Shown here in pieces: positions 1-59,394 of a stretch of 64,000 bases of DNA. The stretch is from Phycisphaerae bacterium (GTDB taxonomy: Bacteria > Planctomycetota > Phycisphaerae > Phycisphaerales > Phycisphaeraceae): positions 1-64,000 of the forward strand of contig JAUHYI010000014.1 in assembly GCA_030426385.1 (NCBI GenBank). The letters are read 5' to 3'. Both the position numbers and the translations under genes were made by a program. Numbering within the stretch: position 1 is the stretch's first letter; each line of letters opens with the position of its first letter. Under the pieces are notes generated by a model. The model had not been told where the DNA came from. It saw only the letters and a list, made by a program, of their open reading frames with translations, and did not search any database.

Positions 1-1543
1 GCATGCCATCGAATGTTTCCAAGCCCAACTGATGCAAGATCGTCGGTGCCAGGTCGATGATGTGTGCGTCTTCAATCGTGGTGCCAGGTGTGATATGTGG
101 GGCTTTGGCCATGATCCAACCCGTGGGGTTATGGTGACCACTTCGGCCGTCGCCGAATTTATCCGTGGTTTCCCACACGATTTTTCCGTATTGCTCAGAC
201 ACCATGACCTGCGAATCCATCACAGGGATATTGGCCCAACGCACAATTAAGTCCGGCATTGAAGGGCTACGATTGCTCGTAACTTCGGGCCAAACTTCAT
301 CGCCACGCAATACCGCACTCACTAACGGCTGCCCGGTTTTTTCATCTTTCCATGACAGGAACCCGTCGGTAATTTTTTGCAGCAATGCGTCAAGTTCACT
401 GGGCTCGACGATGCCTTCCGGTTCACGGCCTTTGAGGTTGATTCGCACATAGCCTTCCAAATCACCCAATGGCACAAACGCTTTGATCTGAGACCAATCT
501 TTGGCTTTGCCGCGACCGGACCAGAAACGCATGAGTTTGTCTTGCACGGGTTTGGGTAATTGCCGTTTTACATAAGATCGCCATTCGTTAGGAATCGCTT
601 GACGCACGCGTTTCAACAATCCCGGATTCGATTTGGGAAAATCTTCCGGGAACAGTTTTTTGTCATGCACGATGCGATCCAACATGTCTGCCGTTAGCGG
701 GTATCGACTTTGCGATCGTTGCATGCCGTGTGAAGCCATGCAAATGACCGTCACGTCGTCGCCGACTTCTGACAGCATCTTGCCGACTTGTTTGTCCGCA
801 CAGACATACAGATCACGAATGGCATTGTCATATTTTTCCAACATGGCTGGCGATACATCGGCAGGATTTTCTTTGAAACTCGATCGATCCCACAGGTCAT
901 GACCGCCACGGTGCGTTGCCCCCAGGCCGACGATGAACATGTCCCACTCGTCATTGCGTAACAGATCACGGCAGGCATCGCCTACTTTTTCTGTGCCTTC
1001 GATCAAACGTTTACGCGTACGCAACTGGGCTTTGATCGATTGCAATTCGCCTGCTTCGGGAGGAATCGGCAACTTGTGGTATTTCGATTTGAGATGTTCG
1101 CCAAATTCAGGCGGATACGAATCAAGATCGCACAGTTTGTCATAGCTTCCCCATGACACAATTTCCTTGCCGTCGATCGGCGTGGTCGGAAATGACATCG
1201 GCACATCTATGGCAATCACTTTTTTGCCCAGTGGTCCCAACTGTCGGTAGAACGGCTTGAGATCCAACCAATCCGGTGTCGGCCGGACGTCGTCCATTTG
1301 CTCGGGCACCCATTGCATCCAACAGATATAGCCGTGTTCCACAGGCCATTTGCCCGTGACGATGGTCGGCCAGGGTGTGGCGATCAATGTATCGGCTGTC
1401 GATTTGATTGGGCCATAGGCGCTCGAATCGCGCAGCTTTTTCAGGTTGGGCAAATAGCCTTCTTCACACCACTGTTCGATGCGCGATTTGTCTGCACAGT
1501 CAACGACGATCCAGATCACTTTATTGTTTGAAGTCTCATGCAT
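1..1543 (-). CDS. AlkP-superfamily (type I phosphodiesterase-like) phosphohydrolase, C-terminus beyond window
   Basis: The reading frame is open from an ATG at 1543 to the left edge, so the C-terminus is missing. It starts MHETSNNKVIWIVVD. Asp15 sits where the first metal ligand of the alkaline-phosphatase superfamily lies, and the later segment TPWPTIVTG fits the nucleophile Thr region. GATHRGGHDLW, ASHGMQ and GHHNPTGW match the later metal-site blocks, although the usual DHG is SHG here. There is no signal peptide, so it is probably cytoplasmic. The start overlaps the preceding oxidoreductase gene by 8 bp, and an AGGAG lies just upstream inside that gene, so the two are translationally coupled. 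A phosphohydrolase or phosphotransferase acting on a glycan or nucleotide-sugar intermediate is inferred. The substrate cannot be told. Confidence 0.8.
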   Translation of the reverse strand, partial: MHETSNNKVIWIVVDCADKSRIEQWCEEGYLPNLKKLRDSSAYGPIKSTADTLIATPWPTIVTGKWPVEHGYICWMQWVPEQMDDVRPTPDWLDLKPFYRQLGPLGKKVIAIDVPMSFPTTPIDGKEIVSWGSYDKLCDLDSYPPEFGEHLKSKYHKLPIPPEAGELQSIKAQLRTRKRLIEGTEKVGDACRDLLRNDEWDMFIVGLGATHRGGHDLWDRSSFKENPADVSPAMLEKYDNAIRDLYVCADKQVGKMLSEVGDDVTVICMASHGMQRSQSRYPLTADMLDRIVHDKKLFPEDFPKSNPGLLKRVRQAIPNEWRSYVKRQLPKPVQDKLMRFWSGRGKAKDWSQIKAFVPLGDLEGYVRINLKGREPEGIVEPSELDALLQKITDGFLSWKDEKTGQPLVSAVLRGDEVWPEVTSNRSPSMPDLIVRWANIPVMDSQVMVSEQYGKIVWETTDKFGDGRSGHHNPTGWIMAKAPHITPGTTIEDAHIIDLAPTILHQLGLETFDGM

Positions 1544-2519
1544 CGATAAAAATCTCCTTGCCGCTTTGCTCTGCTGAAGTTCGCGCCGCTTCTACCGCGT
1601 GAATGACTGCGATGCCGTCATGAATACTGGGTTGGGGCGTTTGTTGGTTCGTGATAAATTGGAAGAAATTTTCAAACTGCACGACATAGGATCGACCCAG
1701 TGTCCACTTTTTCCCGGTCAGTCGGCCTTTGATCTTATCGCTGAAATCCATTGCTTGTCGCATCGCGCCGCCTGTGGGCAAAATGCGTTGCGATCCCATG
1801 CGTGCTGCATAGGTTTTGCCTTGCGTTTTTACAATTAAATGTTCCTGCGTGCGATCGCATTGGGCATGACTGCATGTGGCTTCAATGCCATCGGTCATTT
1901 TAACTTGCAGGCGAATCGTGCGTTCATCAGGACGCTGGGCCTGAACGCTGACGATATTGGCGTCAAATATATAACGCAACAAATCCAGATGATGCGATGC
2001 CAGATCGTCAAGTGGATCCACGATGCCGGTTAATGGGTTCCAGCCTTTTACGTTGTTATCGAATACGGTTTCGACTTGAATTGGTTGTGAGCGATCTCGT
2101 TTTTCCATCGCTTTGCGAAGAAGCACAATTGGTTGCCAATGTCTTCGGTTATAGCCAACCATCACACGCTGCACTGCGGCGTCGCCCATCGCAAGCAATT
2201 CGTTGGCATCGTCGAGCGTGGGAGCCAATGGTTTTTCTACCAGCACCGCAGGTCCAGCGTTTAGCACCTGTTTGACCATCGGGATGTGCATTTTGGGAGG
2301 GGTTGCGACGATCACGCCATCGAGCTTGGCCTGTTCCAGCATGGCTTCGATTGATGGGTATGTTTGGCAATCTGAAAATGATGACGCAATCAGGTCACGC
2401 CGCTCGGCCAATGGATCGGTCACGGCTACCAATGTGCCGCCGGATACCATTTGCAAGGCAGGCACATACAAATGTTCTGCAGCTCGGCCACAACCGATTA
2501 ATCCTAAACGAAATCCCAT
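1536..2519 (-). CDS. Gfo/Idh/MocA-family NAD(P)-dependent oxidoreductase
   Basis: This 327-residue protein has the family layout. An N-terminal Rossmann fold opens with GLIGCGRAAEHLY (residues 5-17), the catalytic-lysine motif VEKPLAP lies near residue 94, and an alpha/beta C-terminal domain follows. Such enzymes oxidise or reduce a hydroxyl or keto group on sugars, often nucleotide sugars. AAGGA lies about 9 nt before the ATG. The stop overlaps the start of the downstream AlkP-like gene. It sits at the far end of the polysaccharide cluster, so a role in making or modifying a precursor sugar is likely, but the substrate is not visible from sequence. Confidence 0.88.
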   Translation of the reverse strand: MGFRLGLIGCGRAAEHLYVPALQMVSGGTLVAVTDPLAERRDLIASSFSDCQTYPSIEAMLEQAKLDGVIVATPPKMHIPMVKQVLNAGPAVLVEKPLAPTLDDANELLAMGDAAVQRVMVGYNRRHWQPIVLLRKAMEKRDRSQPIQVETVFDNNVKGWNPLTGIVDPLDDLASHHLDLLRYIFDANIVSVQAQRPDERTIRLQVKMTDGIEATCSHAQCDRTQEHLIVKTQGKTYAARMGSQRILPTGGAMRQAMDFSDKIKGRLTGKKWTLGRSYVVQFENFFQFITNQQTPQPSIHDGIAVIHAVEAARTSAEQSGKEIFIDA

Positions 2520-2574
2520 GACTCTTAGTCCTTATAAACGACGCGCGGTCGTATCAATATCCTGGTTCTGTTAT

Positions 2575-3561
2575 CTATTTAGCTACATCGTACAGTTGGC
2601 TGTACGGCTGAATCGGTTCTCGGCAAGCACGCCGAAATCCTGATGCCCACCAGAACATACCCAGCAGCACCAACGGACTCAGTAGTAATAATTTTGGCAA
2701 CGCTCGTTTGTGCAAACGCAGGGTTTGTCCCAGCATGTATTTCAAACGTTTCGCCACGAGCGGTATGGCGACCAGCCGATATCGCCCGAGCTTTCGATGT
2801 TTATGCGTCATTTTCAAGCCGACCGAGCCACGGCAATATCCAAAAAACGCTTGGTGTTTTAGAAAACCCGACAATGTGGTACGACCGATATGTCGAATGC
2901 GCATCGCGGCATCAAATCGAATGGCGTCAGGCTGATTGGGATATCGATCTGCCATGGCGAAACATAACAAAGTGTCTTCACCCGCGGGCATTTTGGTGTC
3001 GGGGAAACCACCAATGGCCAGAAAGTCATCGCGACTCATAGCCATATTGCAGCCGGGGAAATATTCAGCCTGTCCGCTGGGGCGCGTTGGGGGAAAATCG
3101 GCGAATTGCGAATAATTGTCTGCGACTGCAAATGGATTCCATGGCCGAGCATCGAGCACTGGACCGCCCACCATTTTGGCACCTGCGTCCAACGCACGAA
3201 CCGCTGCCGAAACAAACGTGGGGTCGGCCACACAATCGGCATCCAGAAATATCACATAGTCGGCGCTGGTTTGTTCGCTGCCGATGTTGCGACCAATGCA
3301 TTGCAACAAATTATCGTGTGACCGAATCAATTTAACACGGGGATAACGGTTCGCCACAGCTGCCACCGCGTCGTCATGCCAGCCATCGATCACGATGACA
3401 TCGAACGCACCGTCATAGTCCTGTTGTTCCAACGAATCCAAGCATGGCGGCAAATATTCTGCGCCCTTGACTGGAATGATCACTGACGCCCGCAGTGATT
3501 GTGCCGAACTTGCATCGGGCGATTGGGAAGGTTCGGTGGTTTGAGTGTGGTGAGTCGTCAT
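2575..3561 (-). CDS. glycosyltransferase family 2
   Basis: A GT-A glycosyltransferase of about 328 residues. The nucleotide-sugar-binding start SVIIPVKG is at residues 26-33, the DxD metal motif FLDADC at 105-110, and an acceptor-loop GEDTLL further on. A C-terminal hydrophobic stretch (LLLLSPLVLLGMFWW) suggests membrane attachment. The open frame extends 42 codons upstream, but that part is low-complexity and reaches towards the preceding gene, so I chose the ATG at 3561. It would add one sugar to a lipid-linked repeat unit at the inner face of the membrane. The donor sugar is unknown. Confidence 0.87.
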   Translation of the reverse strand: MTTHHTQTTEPSQSPDASSAQSLRASVIIPVKGAEYLPPCLDSLEQQDYDGAFDVIVIDGWHDDAVAAVANRYPRVKLIRSHDNLLQCIGRNIGSEQTSADYVIFLDADCVADPTFVSAAVRALDAGAKMVGGPVLDARPWNPFAVADNYSQFADFPPTRPSGQAEYFPGCNMAMSRDDFLAIGGFPDTKMPAGEDTLLCFAMADRYPNQPDAIRFDAAMRIRHIGRTTLSGFLKHQAFFGYCRGSVGLKMTHKHRKLGRYRLVAIPLVAKRLKYMLGQTLRLHKRALPKLLLLSPLVLLGMFWWASGFRRACREPIQPYSQLYDVAK

Positions 3562-3631
3562 GATGACTGTCTGATGGTTTGAGTGTGCGTATGGCGTGAT
3601 GGCATGGGTGCGTAGTGTGTGTGGAAAGGTG

Positions 3632-3656
3632 GTGTGTGTGGTGGGGGGGCGGGGGG
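3632..3656 (+). repeat. GT and G-run low-complexity tract
   Basis: Between two glycosyltransferase genes lies a GTGTGTG stretch followed by runs of seven and six G. Similar (GT)nGn tracts recur at 8141-8157, 15271-15298, 22757-22777 and 25385-25425, always at gene junctions of this cluster. Confidence 0.7.
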
Positions 3657-4907
3657 TTACGCGATGATGTGCCGAGCGATTTTCCAATAGCCGTTGAAAA
3701 GTACGTTCAGCAGTGTGATCCCGAACCGGGCGATCGGGTTTTTGATGAACCCCGGTGCCAGTGGAATTGGGCCGCCGCTGAGAACCTGACGGTCTGGCGT
3801 TTTACGGTTATTTTGTACGCGTTTACGCTTGGACAAGATCAGCGATACGTTCGTCAGATTCCACCACCATGCGCGTACCCATTGCCAACCGAACCCACGC
3901 AACACCGCGATTCCCAGGCTTGCCAATTCATACAATGCCAGGGCGGGTAGCAGGACTAACAATGTCCATATCCGGTAATGGATGAACATGTTGAGCAAGC
4001 GATGTCGCATTGACAGGTACATGCGGCGCTTGGGATATTTCTTTTCTTTGCCACGAAACGATAGGCCTGGCGTTCCCGCACCGCGCTCGTGCCACACGAC
4101 CGCTTTGGGTTCACAGAACACGTGGTATCCCATGCCTCGCATGCGCATGGAAAATTCCAGATCCTCAAAATAGAAGAAGAAGGTTTCGTCGAAAGCACCC
4201 GCAGCCATCACTCGGGGAAGATCCACCAGATAGCACGCACCGATGCAGCCTCCCACTTCGACCGCATTCATGTTCGGCAATTGATCCACGGGCGTATAGG
4301 CATGGCGTAGTGTCATCGTTCCCAGGAAATGACATTCAGCGCCCTCGGCTTGTACCGTATCTCGCTCAGGAATTAAACGAATGCGTGGACAAACAATCAC
4401 AGGCTTATCGTTGTTTTGATAGGCCTTGACCATGCATTCGATCGTGTCGTCCTGCATATAGATATCGTTGTCGACCAGCAAAGCCAGTTCGGGGATCACA
4501 GGGTTTGTTTGGCTATCGTGTGTGCTATTTGTGGGTACCGTACCATCAAGCAACATTTGCAAACCTGTGTTGCGGGCCTGGGGTAAGCCTTCGTTGCATC
4601 CCATGTCGTGGACATGCACGGGGATGGATGCATCGGCAAATTGCGCGCGTATTTTTTCTGGCGTGCCATCGGTCGAATCATTGTCGATCAATAAAATCTG
4701 CGTCAAAGGATACGGCTGATTTACCAACGCTTCGATCGTGTTGATGATGCGCTGGCCGCCGTTGTAATTGATGACTACCGCACTGACCGTCGTGGGTGGC
4801 CCCGCGTTCTGTTTGGTGTCGCTTGTGTCGCCATCGGGCAGTGATGCATGCGATGACTGCTGCGACGTTGAATTAGGCGATGCCGTTTGTTCCATCAGAT
4901 CATCCAT
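3657..4907 (-). CDS. glycosyltransferase family 2, rhamnosyltransferase-like
   Basis: A 416-residue protein with about 40 polar, disordered N-terminal residues before the GT-A fold (SAVVINYNG, residues 42-50; LLIDNDSTDGT, 72-82). LVDNDIYMQD carries the DxD-like metal site, and FEDLEFSMRMRGMGYH resembles the EDxDxxxRxxxxGY block typical of WbbL-type rhamnosyltransferases. A hydrophobic stretch near residue 335 (LLVLLPALALYELASLG) suggests membrane association. The start at 4907 has no clear Shine-Dalgarno sequence, and Met5 is an alternative. It may begin its own transcript, because a promoter-like pair lies about 110 bp upstream. Confidence 0.85.
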   Translation of the reverse strand: MDDLMEQTASPNSTSQQSSHASLPDGDTSDTKQNAGPPTTVSAVVINYNGGQRIINTIEALVNQPYPLTQILLIDNDSTDGTPEKIRAQFADASIPVHVHDMGCNEGLPQARNTGLQMLLDGTVPTNSTHDSQTNPVIPELALLVDNDIYMQDDTIECMVKAYQNNDKPVIVCPRIRLIPERDTVQAEGAECHFLGTMTLRHAYTPVDQLPNMNAVEVGGCIGACYLVDLPRVMAAGAFDETFFFYFEDLEFSMRMRGMGYHVFCEPKAVVWHERGAGTPGLSFRGKEKKYPKRRMYLSMRHRLLNMFIHYRIWTLLVLLPALALYELASLGIAVLRGFGWQWVRAWWWNLTNVSLILSKRKRVQNNRKTPDRQVLSGGPIPLAPGFIKNPIARFGITLLNVLFNGYWKIARHIIA

Positions 4908-5016
4908 GATGCGTTATTGGTGTGGCTGGTGATAAAATTGATAAAACCCCAAGTCGGCTTGGAGTTGTGCGGGCGAACACGTTTGCTAATGGGTTTAGCG
5001 TGTGTGATTTGCCTGC

Positions 5017-45037: not shown

Positions 45038-45733
45038 ATCCTGTGTGGGTTGTTGAGATACCAACTGCTTTGTGTCCAACAGTGCTTCGTGCCATCGCTA
45101 CGGTGTGGCGAGATTGTCGCATGGTCGATACTTCATGGCCATGCTTGTGTGAGTTCGCGTTGTGCTGGTGGCGCATCATCGAATATCAGAGTGTTTGGCA
45201 TAATTTATGGCCTAAAGATATTCATGCTGGCCTGGTCACTTAATGTGGTTCGGCCGGATTGTGAGATGGTGGCAAATTACGCAAAACGCGTTAAGTGTTC
45301 AGGCTGTGATGTGCTCGTGCATGAACAATGCTGGAGGTCTGAAGGTCTGAAGGTCTGGCGGTCTGGCGGTCTGGCGGTCTGGCGGTCGGGAAGTACGGGA
45401 AGATCAGGCAGAAGTGGTATCCGTTTTTTATCTATATCCCTTGCTGGCTTTATGGATGGCGTTATCCGTTTGCAGTTTTGCGGCAACAATATTACAGTAT
45501 TCCAATACCCGAATAAGATTTAGGCGAGTCCATGATTTATCAGTCATCGACTTGATTTTTCGGTAAGTTCGGCCTGAAAAGGCCCGGTATGTATATCGGA
45601 TTGAGGTCATTCCAACAGCGTAATTCACAGGATGAATGCTTTCTTGCGAATGTTTGCATTGGCGTGCTCGGTCCGTGTTGGATTGGATGGCTCGCGTTGG
45701 CGGCGGGGTGTGAGGTCTTTCAAGGAGCGGGCG
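45038..45733. other. 696-bp spacer with octamer array
   Basis: No gene is supported before 45734. It holds the GGTCTGGC tandem array (45336-45391) and a small hairpin with a GAAA loop (45571-45584, GGCCT/AGGCC). The promoter of the following two-gene unit should lie in the last 150 bp but was not identified. Confidence 0.5.
45336..45391. repeat. octamer tandem array GGTCTGAA/GGTCTGGC
   Basis: Two GGTCTGAA units are followed by four GGTCTGGC units and a degenerate GGTCGGGA. The head-to-tail 8-mers have no spacers, so this is a simple tandem array and not a CRISPR. Confidence 0.85.
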
Positions 45734-56146: not shown

Positions 56147-56456
56147 TGGCACCTGTTTGATTTTACCCACGATTTGCTTCCAGGCGTTACATGCCTCTGG
56201 TTTTCGTTCTGGAAGATAAGAGAGCAAACACAATGCCAGACCGTCCCGCGTTTTGGGGCTAACAGGGGCTGTTCCGGGCCTCATAATTACAACATTCTTG
56301 ACTTTTGTTGTTTTTTATACATCATGATGATGCTTGTAATACAACAAGCCGATGCCAGTTTTACGTCGTTGGCGATGGCCAGAAAGCTCCAGAAAGCTCG
56401 CCGTCACGTCTTGCTCACGTCGCAACCCGACACGAACCAACGAGAAAACATTCAAC
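56147..56456. promoter_or_regulatory. divergent regulatory region of pseudopilin and sigma-54 activator
   Basis: 310 bp. AT-rich near 56290-56345, with a perfect palindrome CATCATGATG (56320-56329) and TTGTTGT (56305-56311) facing ACAACAA (56341-56347). Probably promoter and operator DNA; no canonical -24/-12 element was seen. Confidence 0.45.
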
Positions 56457-57830
56457 ATGGGTGCTCTGACAAAATCGCAGATTCTGATTGTGGATGACGT
56501 ACCGGCATTCTGCGAAGAGGTTGCCGCTCCGCTGCGATCGGCAGGGTTTGCACCTCGGATATGCTTTAATCCCAGCGATGCGGCTGAGCTAACGCGTCAA
56601 TCCTCGTTCGACCTGATCATCACAAGTCTGGTCATGCGTGAGATGAGCGGTTTCGATCTGATCCGAACCCTGCGCGGCATCGCGGTGACCACGCCGATCC
56701 TTATGATCACTGGCCAAGGAAGTCCCAGGGCAGCGATCGAAGCGGTCCGGCTTGGTGCGAGCGATTATCTGGCCAAGCCGGTCTCTTCCGAGGAATTGAT
56801 TGCCCGCGTTCAGGCCTTGCTCAACGGCTCGAGCGAAACGCAACAGCACGGGATGCGTCTGAACGAAATCGTCACGCAAGACCGCGCGATGCAAGGCATT
56901 TTTGAGATGGTCGAGACGATCGCGCCGACGCGGAGCCGTGTTTTGATACTGGGTGAAACCGGCACCGGCAAGCAATTGCTGGCGCGTGCGATTCATGCAT
57001 ACAGTGGCCGAGCCAAGCAGCCGTTCGTTGAAGTGAACTGTGCGGCGATTCCGGATTCGCTTTTGGAAAGCGAGCTTTTTGGGCACGAAAAAGGGGCATT
57101 TACCGGGGCCACCAGTCGCCGAATCGGTCGCTTTGAACAGGCGGGTGATGGCACGATTTTTCTGGATGAGATCGGCGAAATGAATGCGGGCTTGCAATCG
57201 AAACTGCTGCATGTGATTGAGGGTGGTCAGTACACCCGCGTCGGAGGAAGCAAGCTGCGCGTCAGTGGTGCGCGTGTGGTTGCGGCCACGAATCGTAATC
57301 TGAGTGAGGAAGTTGATGCGGGTCGATTCCGAGCGGATCTGTACTTCAGGCTCAATGTCATCACCATCGCCGTGCCATCGCTGCGCGAACGGGTGGACGA
57401 CATTCCGCTGCTGGCGCAACATTTTCTTGAGCGGTTTTGCGAGTCGGGTGATCAAGTCAAACGATTTGATGCCGAGGCGATTTCGGCCATGAAGCAATAC
57501 GCGTGGCCCGGCAATGTGCGCGAGCTTCAGAATCTGGCGGAGCGTCTTTCGATCCTGCATCCGACTGACGAAATTGGTGTGGCGGCGTTGTCGGCCATTG
57601 TTCGAGACGTGCCGGGTGGCGTCGTGCCGTCGGCGTCGTTGATGGGGTCAACCTACCGCGAAGCCAAGGCCGAATTCGAGCGGGCGTATCTTTCGCAGAT
57701 GATCGAGGCGACCAACGGCAATCTTGCGGAAGCGGCCAGACGCGCGGGCCTAGATCGCGCCCAGTTTTATCGCATGGCCCAGCGTCACGCGTTGACCGGC
57801 CAGCCGAAGCGCGAGGGATCGCCTGACTAG
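56457..57830 (+). CDS. sigma-54-dependent activator with degenerate receiver domain
   Basis: 457 residues in the NtrC order. The receiver (1-120) has Asp13-Asp14 (LIVDDVPAF), Thr84 and Lys107, but the phospho-acceptor position in DLIITSLVMREMSG is Ser57, not Asp. The AAA+ domain has GETGTGK (166-172), GAFTGA (213-218) for sigma-54 contact and TIFLDEIGE (233-241) as Walker B. The C-terminal Fis-type helix-turn-helix is LAEAARRAGLDRAQFYRMA. It should activate sigma-54 promoters, but without normal phosphorylation control. No sensor kinase is nearby. PEP-CTERM systems often use a related regulator (PrsR), but that link is inference. Confidence 0.9.
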   Translation: MGALTKSQILIVDDVPAFCEEVAAPLRSAGFAPRICFNPSDAAELTRQSSFDLIITSLVMREMSGFDLIRTLRGIAVTTPILMITGQGSPRAAIEAVRLGASDYLAKPVSSEELIARVQALLNGSSETQQHGMRLNEIVTQDRAMQGIFEMVETIAPTRSRVLILGETGTGKQLLARAIHAYSGRAKQPFVEVNCAAIPDSLLESELFGHEKGAFTGATSRRIGRFEQAGDGTIFLDEIGEMNAGLQSKLLHVIEGGQYTRVGGSKLRVSGARVVAATNRNLSEEVDAGRFRADLYFRLNVITIAVPSLRERVDDIPLLAQHFLERFCESGDQVKRFDAEAISAMKQYAWPGNVRELQNLAERLSILHPTDEIGVAALSAIVRDVPGGVVPSASLMGSTYREAKAEFERAYLSQMIEATNGNLAEAARRAGLDRAQFYRMAQRHALTGQPKREGSPD

Positions 57831-58059: not shown

Positions 58060-58068
58060 GATTCGTGG
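58060..58068. repeat. left 9-bp direct repeat flanking the MITE-like element
   Basis: GATTCGTGG, identical to 58186-58194. The two copies directly border the inverted-repeat element and look like a target-site duplication. Confidence 0.8.
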
Positions 58069-58185
58069 GTAGTGGGCTAGTTTGAAAAAACAACGAGCCG
58101 CGACCGTCAGGAAGCGGGCTTGCAATACGGAAACCCGCTTCCTGACGGTCGCGGCTCGTCAGAAAATTCAGACTAGCCCACTACC
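58069..58185. mobile_element. 117-bp MITE-like element with nested inverted repeats
   Basis: Terminal arms GTAGTGGGCTAGT (58069-58081) and ACTAGCCCACTAC (58172-58184) are perfect inverted repeats. Inside, 26-nt arms 58093-58118 (ACGAGCCGCGACCGTCAGGA...) and 58134-58159 are also perfect inverted repeats around a 15-nt spacer. A 9-bp direct repeat flanks the whole. It has no coding capacity, so it would need a transposase from elsewhere. Confidence 0.85.
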
Positions 58186-58194
58186 GATTCGTGG
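58186..58194. repeat. right 9-bp direct repeat flanking the MITE-like element
   Basis: GATTCGTGG, the partner of 58060-58068. Confidence 0.8.
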
Positions 58195-58329: not shown

Positions 58330-59394
58330 ATGGCCCGCATCAGAATGGCGCAATTCGGACTTGGCCCCATCGGCATCGAATCCCTCAGGCTCACCGCTGA
58401 GCGTGAGCAATTTGAAATCGTTGGCGGTGTGGATATCGATCCCTCGAAATTAGGAAAATCGATCGCGGAGGTCCTGGGCCTGGCAGGCGCTGCGGCTGCG
58501 GCATTGGGAGATGCTGTGGTCTATGCTTCATTTGATGAGCTTGTCGCGGCCAAAGGTCTGGTCGATGTGGTGCTGCACACGGCTGGTTCGGATGTGGTGC
58601 AGACCTTGAACCAGATCGAGCCGATGGTTCGCGCTGGCGTCAGCGTGGCGACGACGTGCGAGCCGATGATCTATCCATTGCTCACCGCGCCGGAACAGAC
58701 GCAGATGCTCGATCAACTTTGTCAGGCGTCCGGTGCTCGCGTGGTGGGAACGGGTGTGAATCCGGGCTTTGTGATGGAGGTGTTGCCGGTGGTGTTGACA
58801 GGGGTGAGCCGACGGGTGGATTCTGTGTATGCCGAGCGCGTGGTGAACGCCTCGACGCGGCGGATGCAACTCCAGCGCAAAATCGGAAGCGGTATGGAGC
58901 CTGACGCATTTCGTGATTTGTTCGCAGCGGGCAAAGCAGGGCACGCGGGGTTTCAGGAATCGGTGGCATTGATCGCGCACTGTCTGGGATGGCCACTGGA
59001 TCACATCGAAGAAACCTGCGAGCCGGTCGTTGCAGATCATCCGATCGAAACGGCGTACTTCACGGTGGCCCCAGGCAAGTCCTGCGGCATTCACCAGGTG
59101 GCCAAGCTGTGGGTTGATGGCCAGGCCAAAGTCACGCTCGATCTGAAAATGTATCTCGACGCGCCCAACCCACATGACATGGTTCGTATCGAAGGCGATC
59201 CGCCGCTATCGCTCGAAGCGCCGCAAGGCATCGCTGGCGATCACGCGACGGTCGCATCGTTGGTGAATGTGGCCCCGCGGTTGTTGGCTGCTCAGCCCGG
59301 TGTCCGTTTGATGACGGAACTGGGAAGCTCCGCTCCAGTGGCCGGACCAGCGGTACATTCCGACTCACCACAACCCATTACGGCTGGTATCTGA
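58330..59394 (+). CDS. dihydrodipicolinate reductase-like / 2,4-diaminopentanoate dehydrogenase-family protein
   Basis: 354 residues. AQFGLGPIGIESLRL is the Rossmann loop, VVLHTAGSDV and SVATTCEPMIYP follow, and VVGTGVNPGFVMEVLPVVL with ERVVNASTRRMQLQRKIGSG matches the 2,4-diaminopentanoate dehydrogenase group better than true DapB. GGAG lies 8 nt before the ATG. In ornithine fermentation that enzyme oxidises 2,4-diaminopentanoate; here no other genes of that route are present, so the substrate is open. It is probably a single-gene transcript. Confidence 0.83.
   Translation: MARIRMAQFGLGPIGIESLRLTAEREQFEIVGGVDIDPSKLGKSIAEVLGLAGAAAAALGDAVVYASFDELVAAKGLVDVVLHTAGSDVVQTLNQIEPMVRAGVSVATTCEPMIYPLLTAPEQTQMLDQLCQASGARVVGTGVNPGFVMEVLPVVLTGVSRRVDSVYAERVVNASTRRMQLQRKIGSGMEPDAFRDLFAAGKAGHAGFQESVALIAHCLGWPLDHIEETCEPVVADHPIETAYFTVAPGKSCGIHQVAKLWVDGQAKVTLDLKMYLDAPNPHDMVRIEGDPPLSLEAPQGIAGDHATVASLVNVAPRLLAAQPGVRLMTELGSSAPVAGPAVHSDSPQPITAGI

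Follow-up and report, generated by a model that had tools for sequence, protein, structure and literature searches.

The window, a stretch of 64,000 nucleotides, contains the element under study at positions 58068-58185, in the gap between two genes of the forward strand. The upstream gene (56352-57830, +) encodes a putative sigma-54-type response regulator and stops approximately 240 bp before the element. The downstream gene (58330-59394, +) encodes a dihydrodipicolinate-reductase-like protein and starts approximately 145 bp after it; both names come from reading the sequence only. The boundaries of the element were set by comparing copies. It is 118 bp long, has GG...CC ends and lies between two copies of an 8-bp target duplication, GATTCGTG, at 58060-58067 and 58186-58193 (both +). 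Its terminal inverted repeats occupy 58068-58086 (GGTAGTGGGCTAGTTTGAA, +) and 58167-58185 (GGTAGTGGGCTAGTCTGAA, -); they are perfect over 14 nt, GGTAGTGGGCTAGT, and agree at 18 of 19 end positions overall. The first-pass annotation had recognized these ends, with 13-nt repeats at 58069-58185 and a 9-bp duplication, figures that the copies correct. The ninth base only appeared to be duplicated: on one flank it is the element's own first G, and on the opposite flank a G that is there by chance.

Inside the ends is a second, perfect inverted pair of 26 nt, as first annotated and confirmed by direct reading, with arms at 58093-58118 (+) and 58134-58159 (-). Each arm carries one copy of a short motif, GAGCCGCGACCGTCAGGAAGCGG at 58095-58117 (+) and its inverted counterpart at 58135-58157 (-), and the spacer at 58119-58133 (+) forms the loop. 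As a DNA strand the element folds at -57.3 kcal/mol, against -15.8 +/- 2.6 for shuffled sequences (z -15.8); z is about -16 for DNA and RNA alike. No matches to the hairpin arm are expected in shuffled windows. The inverted structure of the element is far beyond chance.

The genome from which the window comes is a 5.19-Mb draft of 177 contigs that is 94% complete, and copy numbers were drawn from this draft. It contains about 33 copies with two main types of ends. About 15 copies belong to family A, which has the ends of the window element, and about 18 to family B, with the ends GGCAGTGGTACATTTTGAAATGC.../GGTAGTGGTTCACTTTA...; one further type was present. Several contigs terminate within copies, as repeats in drafts would. 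Both ends were present in 31 copies. An exact 8-bp duplication flanked 18 of these, and 25 had a duplication with at most one mismatch, whereas chance duplications among 31 copies, with small end shifts allowed, are estimated at less than one. Since the duplications differ from copy to copy and the same termini recur on other copies and on full-size transposons, the original proposal of insertion by transposition rather than a chance hairpin is upheld. The same is true of its designation as a MITE without room for a transposase: the 118 bp between the inverted ends have no coding capacity, and many copies are dispersed in the genome. A simple purpose-made codon-usage gene caller placed 29 copies between genes, 2 doubtfully within genes and 3 at locus edges; the coding share of the window is 85.5%. 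No plasmid copy was found in 72,556 records, and no family-A ends were found in 391 other genomes of the phylum. A candidate empty site near 45215 in the window, resembling the surroundings of two insertions with AGAAATTT duplications, proved to be diverged similar sequence that is not orthologous.

The perfect inner palindrome is a peculiarity of the window copy, because it alone among the family-A copies read has the AAG variant in both arms, while the typical family-A stem has one A/G mismatch between the arms. Relative to the ends, the spacer occurs either way round, in 4 and 11 copies of family A and in 11 and 7 copies of family B. The AAG and GAG arm variants of family A were not swapped despite these inversions, which places the break points in the innermost few bp or indicates that each inversion occurred once and that both forms were then amplified. 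In six family-A copies (L010-L013, L016 and L020), the base of the inner hairpin has expanded C or G runs. Many insertions in this genome also adjoin G-rich runs such as ACGTGGGGGGGTGGGG, which are apparently repeated between genes as well.

A full-size transposon with exactly the family-A ends, as the first-pass annotation had proposed to look for, was found outside the window's genome. When 84,980 species genomes were scanned for a pattern of the family-A end with its inner neighbour, a single locus was returned, in JACDGR010000040.1, so that the exact family-A transposon is known only from a metagenome bin labelled Actinomycetota. This transposon (1081-4951) is 3,871 bp long, with ends GGTAGTGGGCTAGTTT and an exact duplication CGAATAGG. 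Its DDE transposase is approximately 300 aa long and stops 9 bp short of the right end. The transposon also encodes a passenger protein (1445-2941) in which N6/N4 DNA methylase and Mrr-like domains were recognized. The right end of the MITE matches the right end of the transposon at 23 of the 24 terminal bp. A 449-bp stretch in a contig of a viral collection likewise has family-A ends, with the duplication TCTAATCG; by its sequence it contains a fragment of the transposase gene, and it looks like an intermediate between the full transposon and the MITE.

Further complete transposons were reached through related transposases in nine relatives and in contigs of viral collections, so that related ends are also found on full-size elements other than the one in JACDGR010000040.1. 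In ten of these, which lie beside related transposase genes, the ends are GGTAGTG.../GGTACTGG... and the 8-bp duplications are exact. Members of the IS1 family duplicate about 8-10 bp of target and have conserved GGT-type ends, and both features are present in the complete elements. The best match to the transposases was the NCBIfam IS1 model. The Pfam model DDE_Tnp_IS1 scored 44.9 bits (cut-off 24.1) with the transposase of one relative (L168) and 22.7 bits, below the cut-off, with that of JACDGR010000040.1. The partner transposase would thus be IS1-like, and the NCBIfam IS1 scores of 57-80 bits, below the cut-off of 100, point to a divergent group. It differs from the IS1 family also in being a single open frame of about 290-300 aa, and resembles it in the 8-bp duplications and GGTAGTG... 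ends and probably in its DDE domain; some of the transposons carry passenger genes for a methyltransferase or a MazF-like protein. One such passenger (L171, 2530-2880) is a MazF/PemK-type toxin gene. An IS1595 origin of the ends was discarded, since the window's genome gave no DDE_Tnp_IS1595 match. That assembly, a 94% complete draft of 177 contigs, also yielded no IS1-like transposase.

The inner hairpin belongs to a different kind of repeat. In the MITEs, both inner arms contain the 23-mer GAGCCGCGACCGTNAGGGAGCGG, in which the window copy has AAG instead of GAG near the end. Allowing up to 2 mismatches, this motif was found in 26 of the 61 genomes searched, in up to 174 copies, and a reversed-pattern control gave 0. 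It is thus a short, high-copy sequence with hairpin potential, and it occurs singly, in tandem with a period of approximately 40-46 bp, or in inverted pairs with genome-specific spacing. Units of inverted pairs were found in three genomes (G002, G013 and G027) and in the MITEs of the window's genome. A hairpin of the form CCGC-GA-CC-GTNA-GG-GA-GCGG is supported by 39 distinct variants, which were chosen by similarity to the consensus and not for compensation, with some of the most diverged left out, so that the percentage paired is somewhat flattered. Compensatory stem changes included CCAC/GTGG, CCCC/GGGG and an inner GC/GC. The covariation score was 0.227, against 0.077 +/- 0.017 after shuffling (0 of 500 as high), and the signal was lost on sliding the pairing. 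Sub-families with the CCAC/GTGG and CCCC/GGGG stems recur within single genomes, for example GAGCCACGACCGTAAGGGAGTGG in G014.

The motif is also associated with RAYT-type (Y1/HUH) transposase genes. In 15 genomes that have the motif, the surroundings of 60 Y1_Tnp genes contained 35 copies against 3.6 expected from genome-wide rates, an approximately tenfold enrichment with a Poisson P of about 1e-22, which is inflated by tandem copies. Six RAYT genes, in six genera, have inverted copies on both sides. The highest-scoring Y1_Tnp loci have almost no such flanks, and the motif lies instead at weaker-scoring genes; most of the highest-scoring loci appear to represent another Y1 class. From the association and the inverted flanks we conclude that the motif is a REP and the inner hairpin a REPIN-like pair. 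The association holds in relatives and not in the window's own genome. A matching RAYT was not found in the draft assembly, where the Y1_Tnp matches were weak and 0 of them REP-flanked; the one readable Y motif among them, YVQNNP, is not of the class 3 type. The organism could still have class-3 RAYTs that the assembly lacks.

The REP family described here resembles known REPs and REPINs with RAYT/TnpA-REP in its approximately 23-nt imperfect hairpins, high copy number, inverted pairs, tandem arrays and flanking HUH tyrosine transposases (PMC3116915, PMC3733652, PMC6006769). The YV..EQ-like Y motif of its RAYTs, together with the presumed phylum, which judging by gene content is Planctomycetota-like, resembles class 3 TnpA-Y1, whose genes are described as having high-copy structures with a CnGA foot on their flanks (PMC6006769). 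That foot possibly matches the REP found here one base further out. In contrast to the two REP super-families with GTAG or CGTC as the tetranucleotide at one end (PMC3733652), this family has (A)CGAG as its foot, generally with CTGA or CGGA before it. In the literature searched, the REP sequence itself was not found in a related setting; the single match was in a rhizobium paper on another subject.

The first-pass annotation had suggested that the inner hairpin might add a function such as transcription termination, and an ordinary MITE could carry a hairpin selected as a terminator or RNA-processing site. The hairpin is very stable as RNA (-94.5 kcal/mol), and one family-A strand continues with the T-tract TTGTTTTTTC. 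However, this tract lies on one strand only and is absent from family B; the 12 family-A copies between co-directional genes are in the sense orientation in 6 cases and antisense in 6; and the gap types (24 co-directional, 4 convergent and 1 divergent) are those of the genome background. In relatives the REP motif is also found as single copies, in tandem arrays and, in frame, within genes. The element was not flagged by a terminator scan, although the loop limit of that scan would miss such a hairpin anyway. Selection as a terminator or processing site is therefore very unlikely to account for the hairpin.

It could also be supposed that the MITE ends and the REP motif have a common ancestry, the inner palindrome being degenerate transposon ends and not captured REPs. 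GGTCGCGGCTCGT resembles GGTAGTGGGCTAGT at about 10 of 13 positions with one gap, as aligned by eye. In addition, two identical 39-bp half copies, GGCAGTGGTACATTTTGAAATGCTTAACGAGCCGCGACC, were found in the window's genome (C46:38980 and C133:73550), flanked by the exact 8-bp repeats GAAATTTA and AACGTGGG; they end exactly at ...GCCGCGACC, as would be expected had the internal GGTCGCGG been used as an end. These half copies can be explained by such a cryptic end or else by slippage deletion at ACC/CGACC microhomologies. Moreover, the REP motif has its own transposase association and its own hairpin covariation, and it is present in genomes and contexts without MITE ends. We regard a common origin as very improbable. 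It is also very improbable that the unit as a whole, outer GGTAGTGG ends included, is a REPIN mobilized by a RAYT and flanked by incidental 8-bp repeats. Its core is indeed an inverted REP pair of the typical layout, and in relatives RAYTs are linked to the family. However, 8-bp duplications that vary from copy to copy are a hallmark of DDE transposition, and HUH single-strand transposases (IS200/IS605 type) are not known to make target duplications. Complete IS1-like transposons have the same outer ends, and the REPs of relatives occur without these ends.

The element is thus very probably a non-autonomous MITE of an IS1-like DDE transposon group with a REPIN as its body, carried as a passenger. 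That group has ends of the type GGTAGTGGNNNANTTTGAA and 8-bp target duplications. A transposase supplied in trans would recognize the GGTAGTGG... ends and move the unit by ordinary DDE transposition, and the REP pair would be cargo, multiplied in this genome as a passenger of the MITE. In relatives the REP family goes with a RAYT/TnpA-REP of the class-3 type, an HUH single-strand transposase. In the window's genome, the exact REP motif is almost confined to the MITEs, with one free pair at C46:123895, and no matching RAYT was found in the assembly; the REPs here were therefore probably spread by the DDE transposase. We infer that the IS1-like transposase acts in trans to mobilize the MITE, that the MITE took up the REPIN and the two did not arise together, and that the REPs of this genome are no longer accompanied by a working RAYT. 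One genomic parasite appears to be riding inside another, and the REP pair may even help the MITE, for example as a foldable spacer.

Comparable arrangements were found in other genera of this bacterial family. Three IS1-type MITEs carry REPs there: one of 129 bp with the duplication GAAATCTC and one REP (L181), one of 141 bp with one mismatch in its duplication and one REP (L195), and one of 110 bp with the duplication TGCAAGTC, two REPs and degenerate ends (L102). Similar REP-in-MITE arrangements occur in G027, where no duplication was found. REP pairs also lie inside elements with TAGAGC.../...GCTCTA ends in two genomes, G035 (L107/L124) and G032 (L106/L123), and this element is probably a TA-duplicating, IS630-like MITE. 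REP families might thus outlive their own single-strand transposase by repeated capture in unrelated DDE MITEs (IS1-type here and apparently IS630-like in G032 and G035), giving chimeric elements open to two transposition systems; we consider the chances of this to be about even. The persistence and spread of REPs are usually discussed in terms of RAYTs alone. In this genome, where a matching RAYT was not detectable, a REP family has multiplied within elements that bear the marks of DDE transposition, which makes persistence by hitchhiking testable.

Like bacterial IS-derived MITEs, the element is short and noncoding, has the ends of full-size transposons and target duplications, and is intergenic and multi-copy. 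Unlike them, its body is almost wholly a REP pair from a different mobile system and, unlike in known REP systems, the REPs of this genome occur almost only inside DDE-type MITEs. No paper on a REPIN-carrying MITE was found in the literature searched. The REP family also has a clear transposase association in bacteria in which such repeats are little described.

A further observation concerns the RAYT genes of relatives. No paper on a RAYT inside a valyl-tRNA synthetase was found in the literature searched. In six genera, a REP-flanked RAYT domain lies in frame, and always at one position, within the gene for valyl-tRNA synthetase, after ...DQWYVKVTDD...ALRAM (L208, G048:C60; L219, G045:C7; L228, G032:C71; L234, G027:C4; L235, G014:C15; L260, G004:C23). 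These frames are approximately 1216-1373 aa long and the REPs are read through, for example as TSRDREGA and PLPHGRGS. In L228, Pfam assigns tRNA-synt_1, Anticodon_1 and Val_tRNA-synt_C, with Y1_Tnp in the middle.
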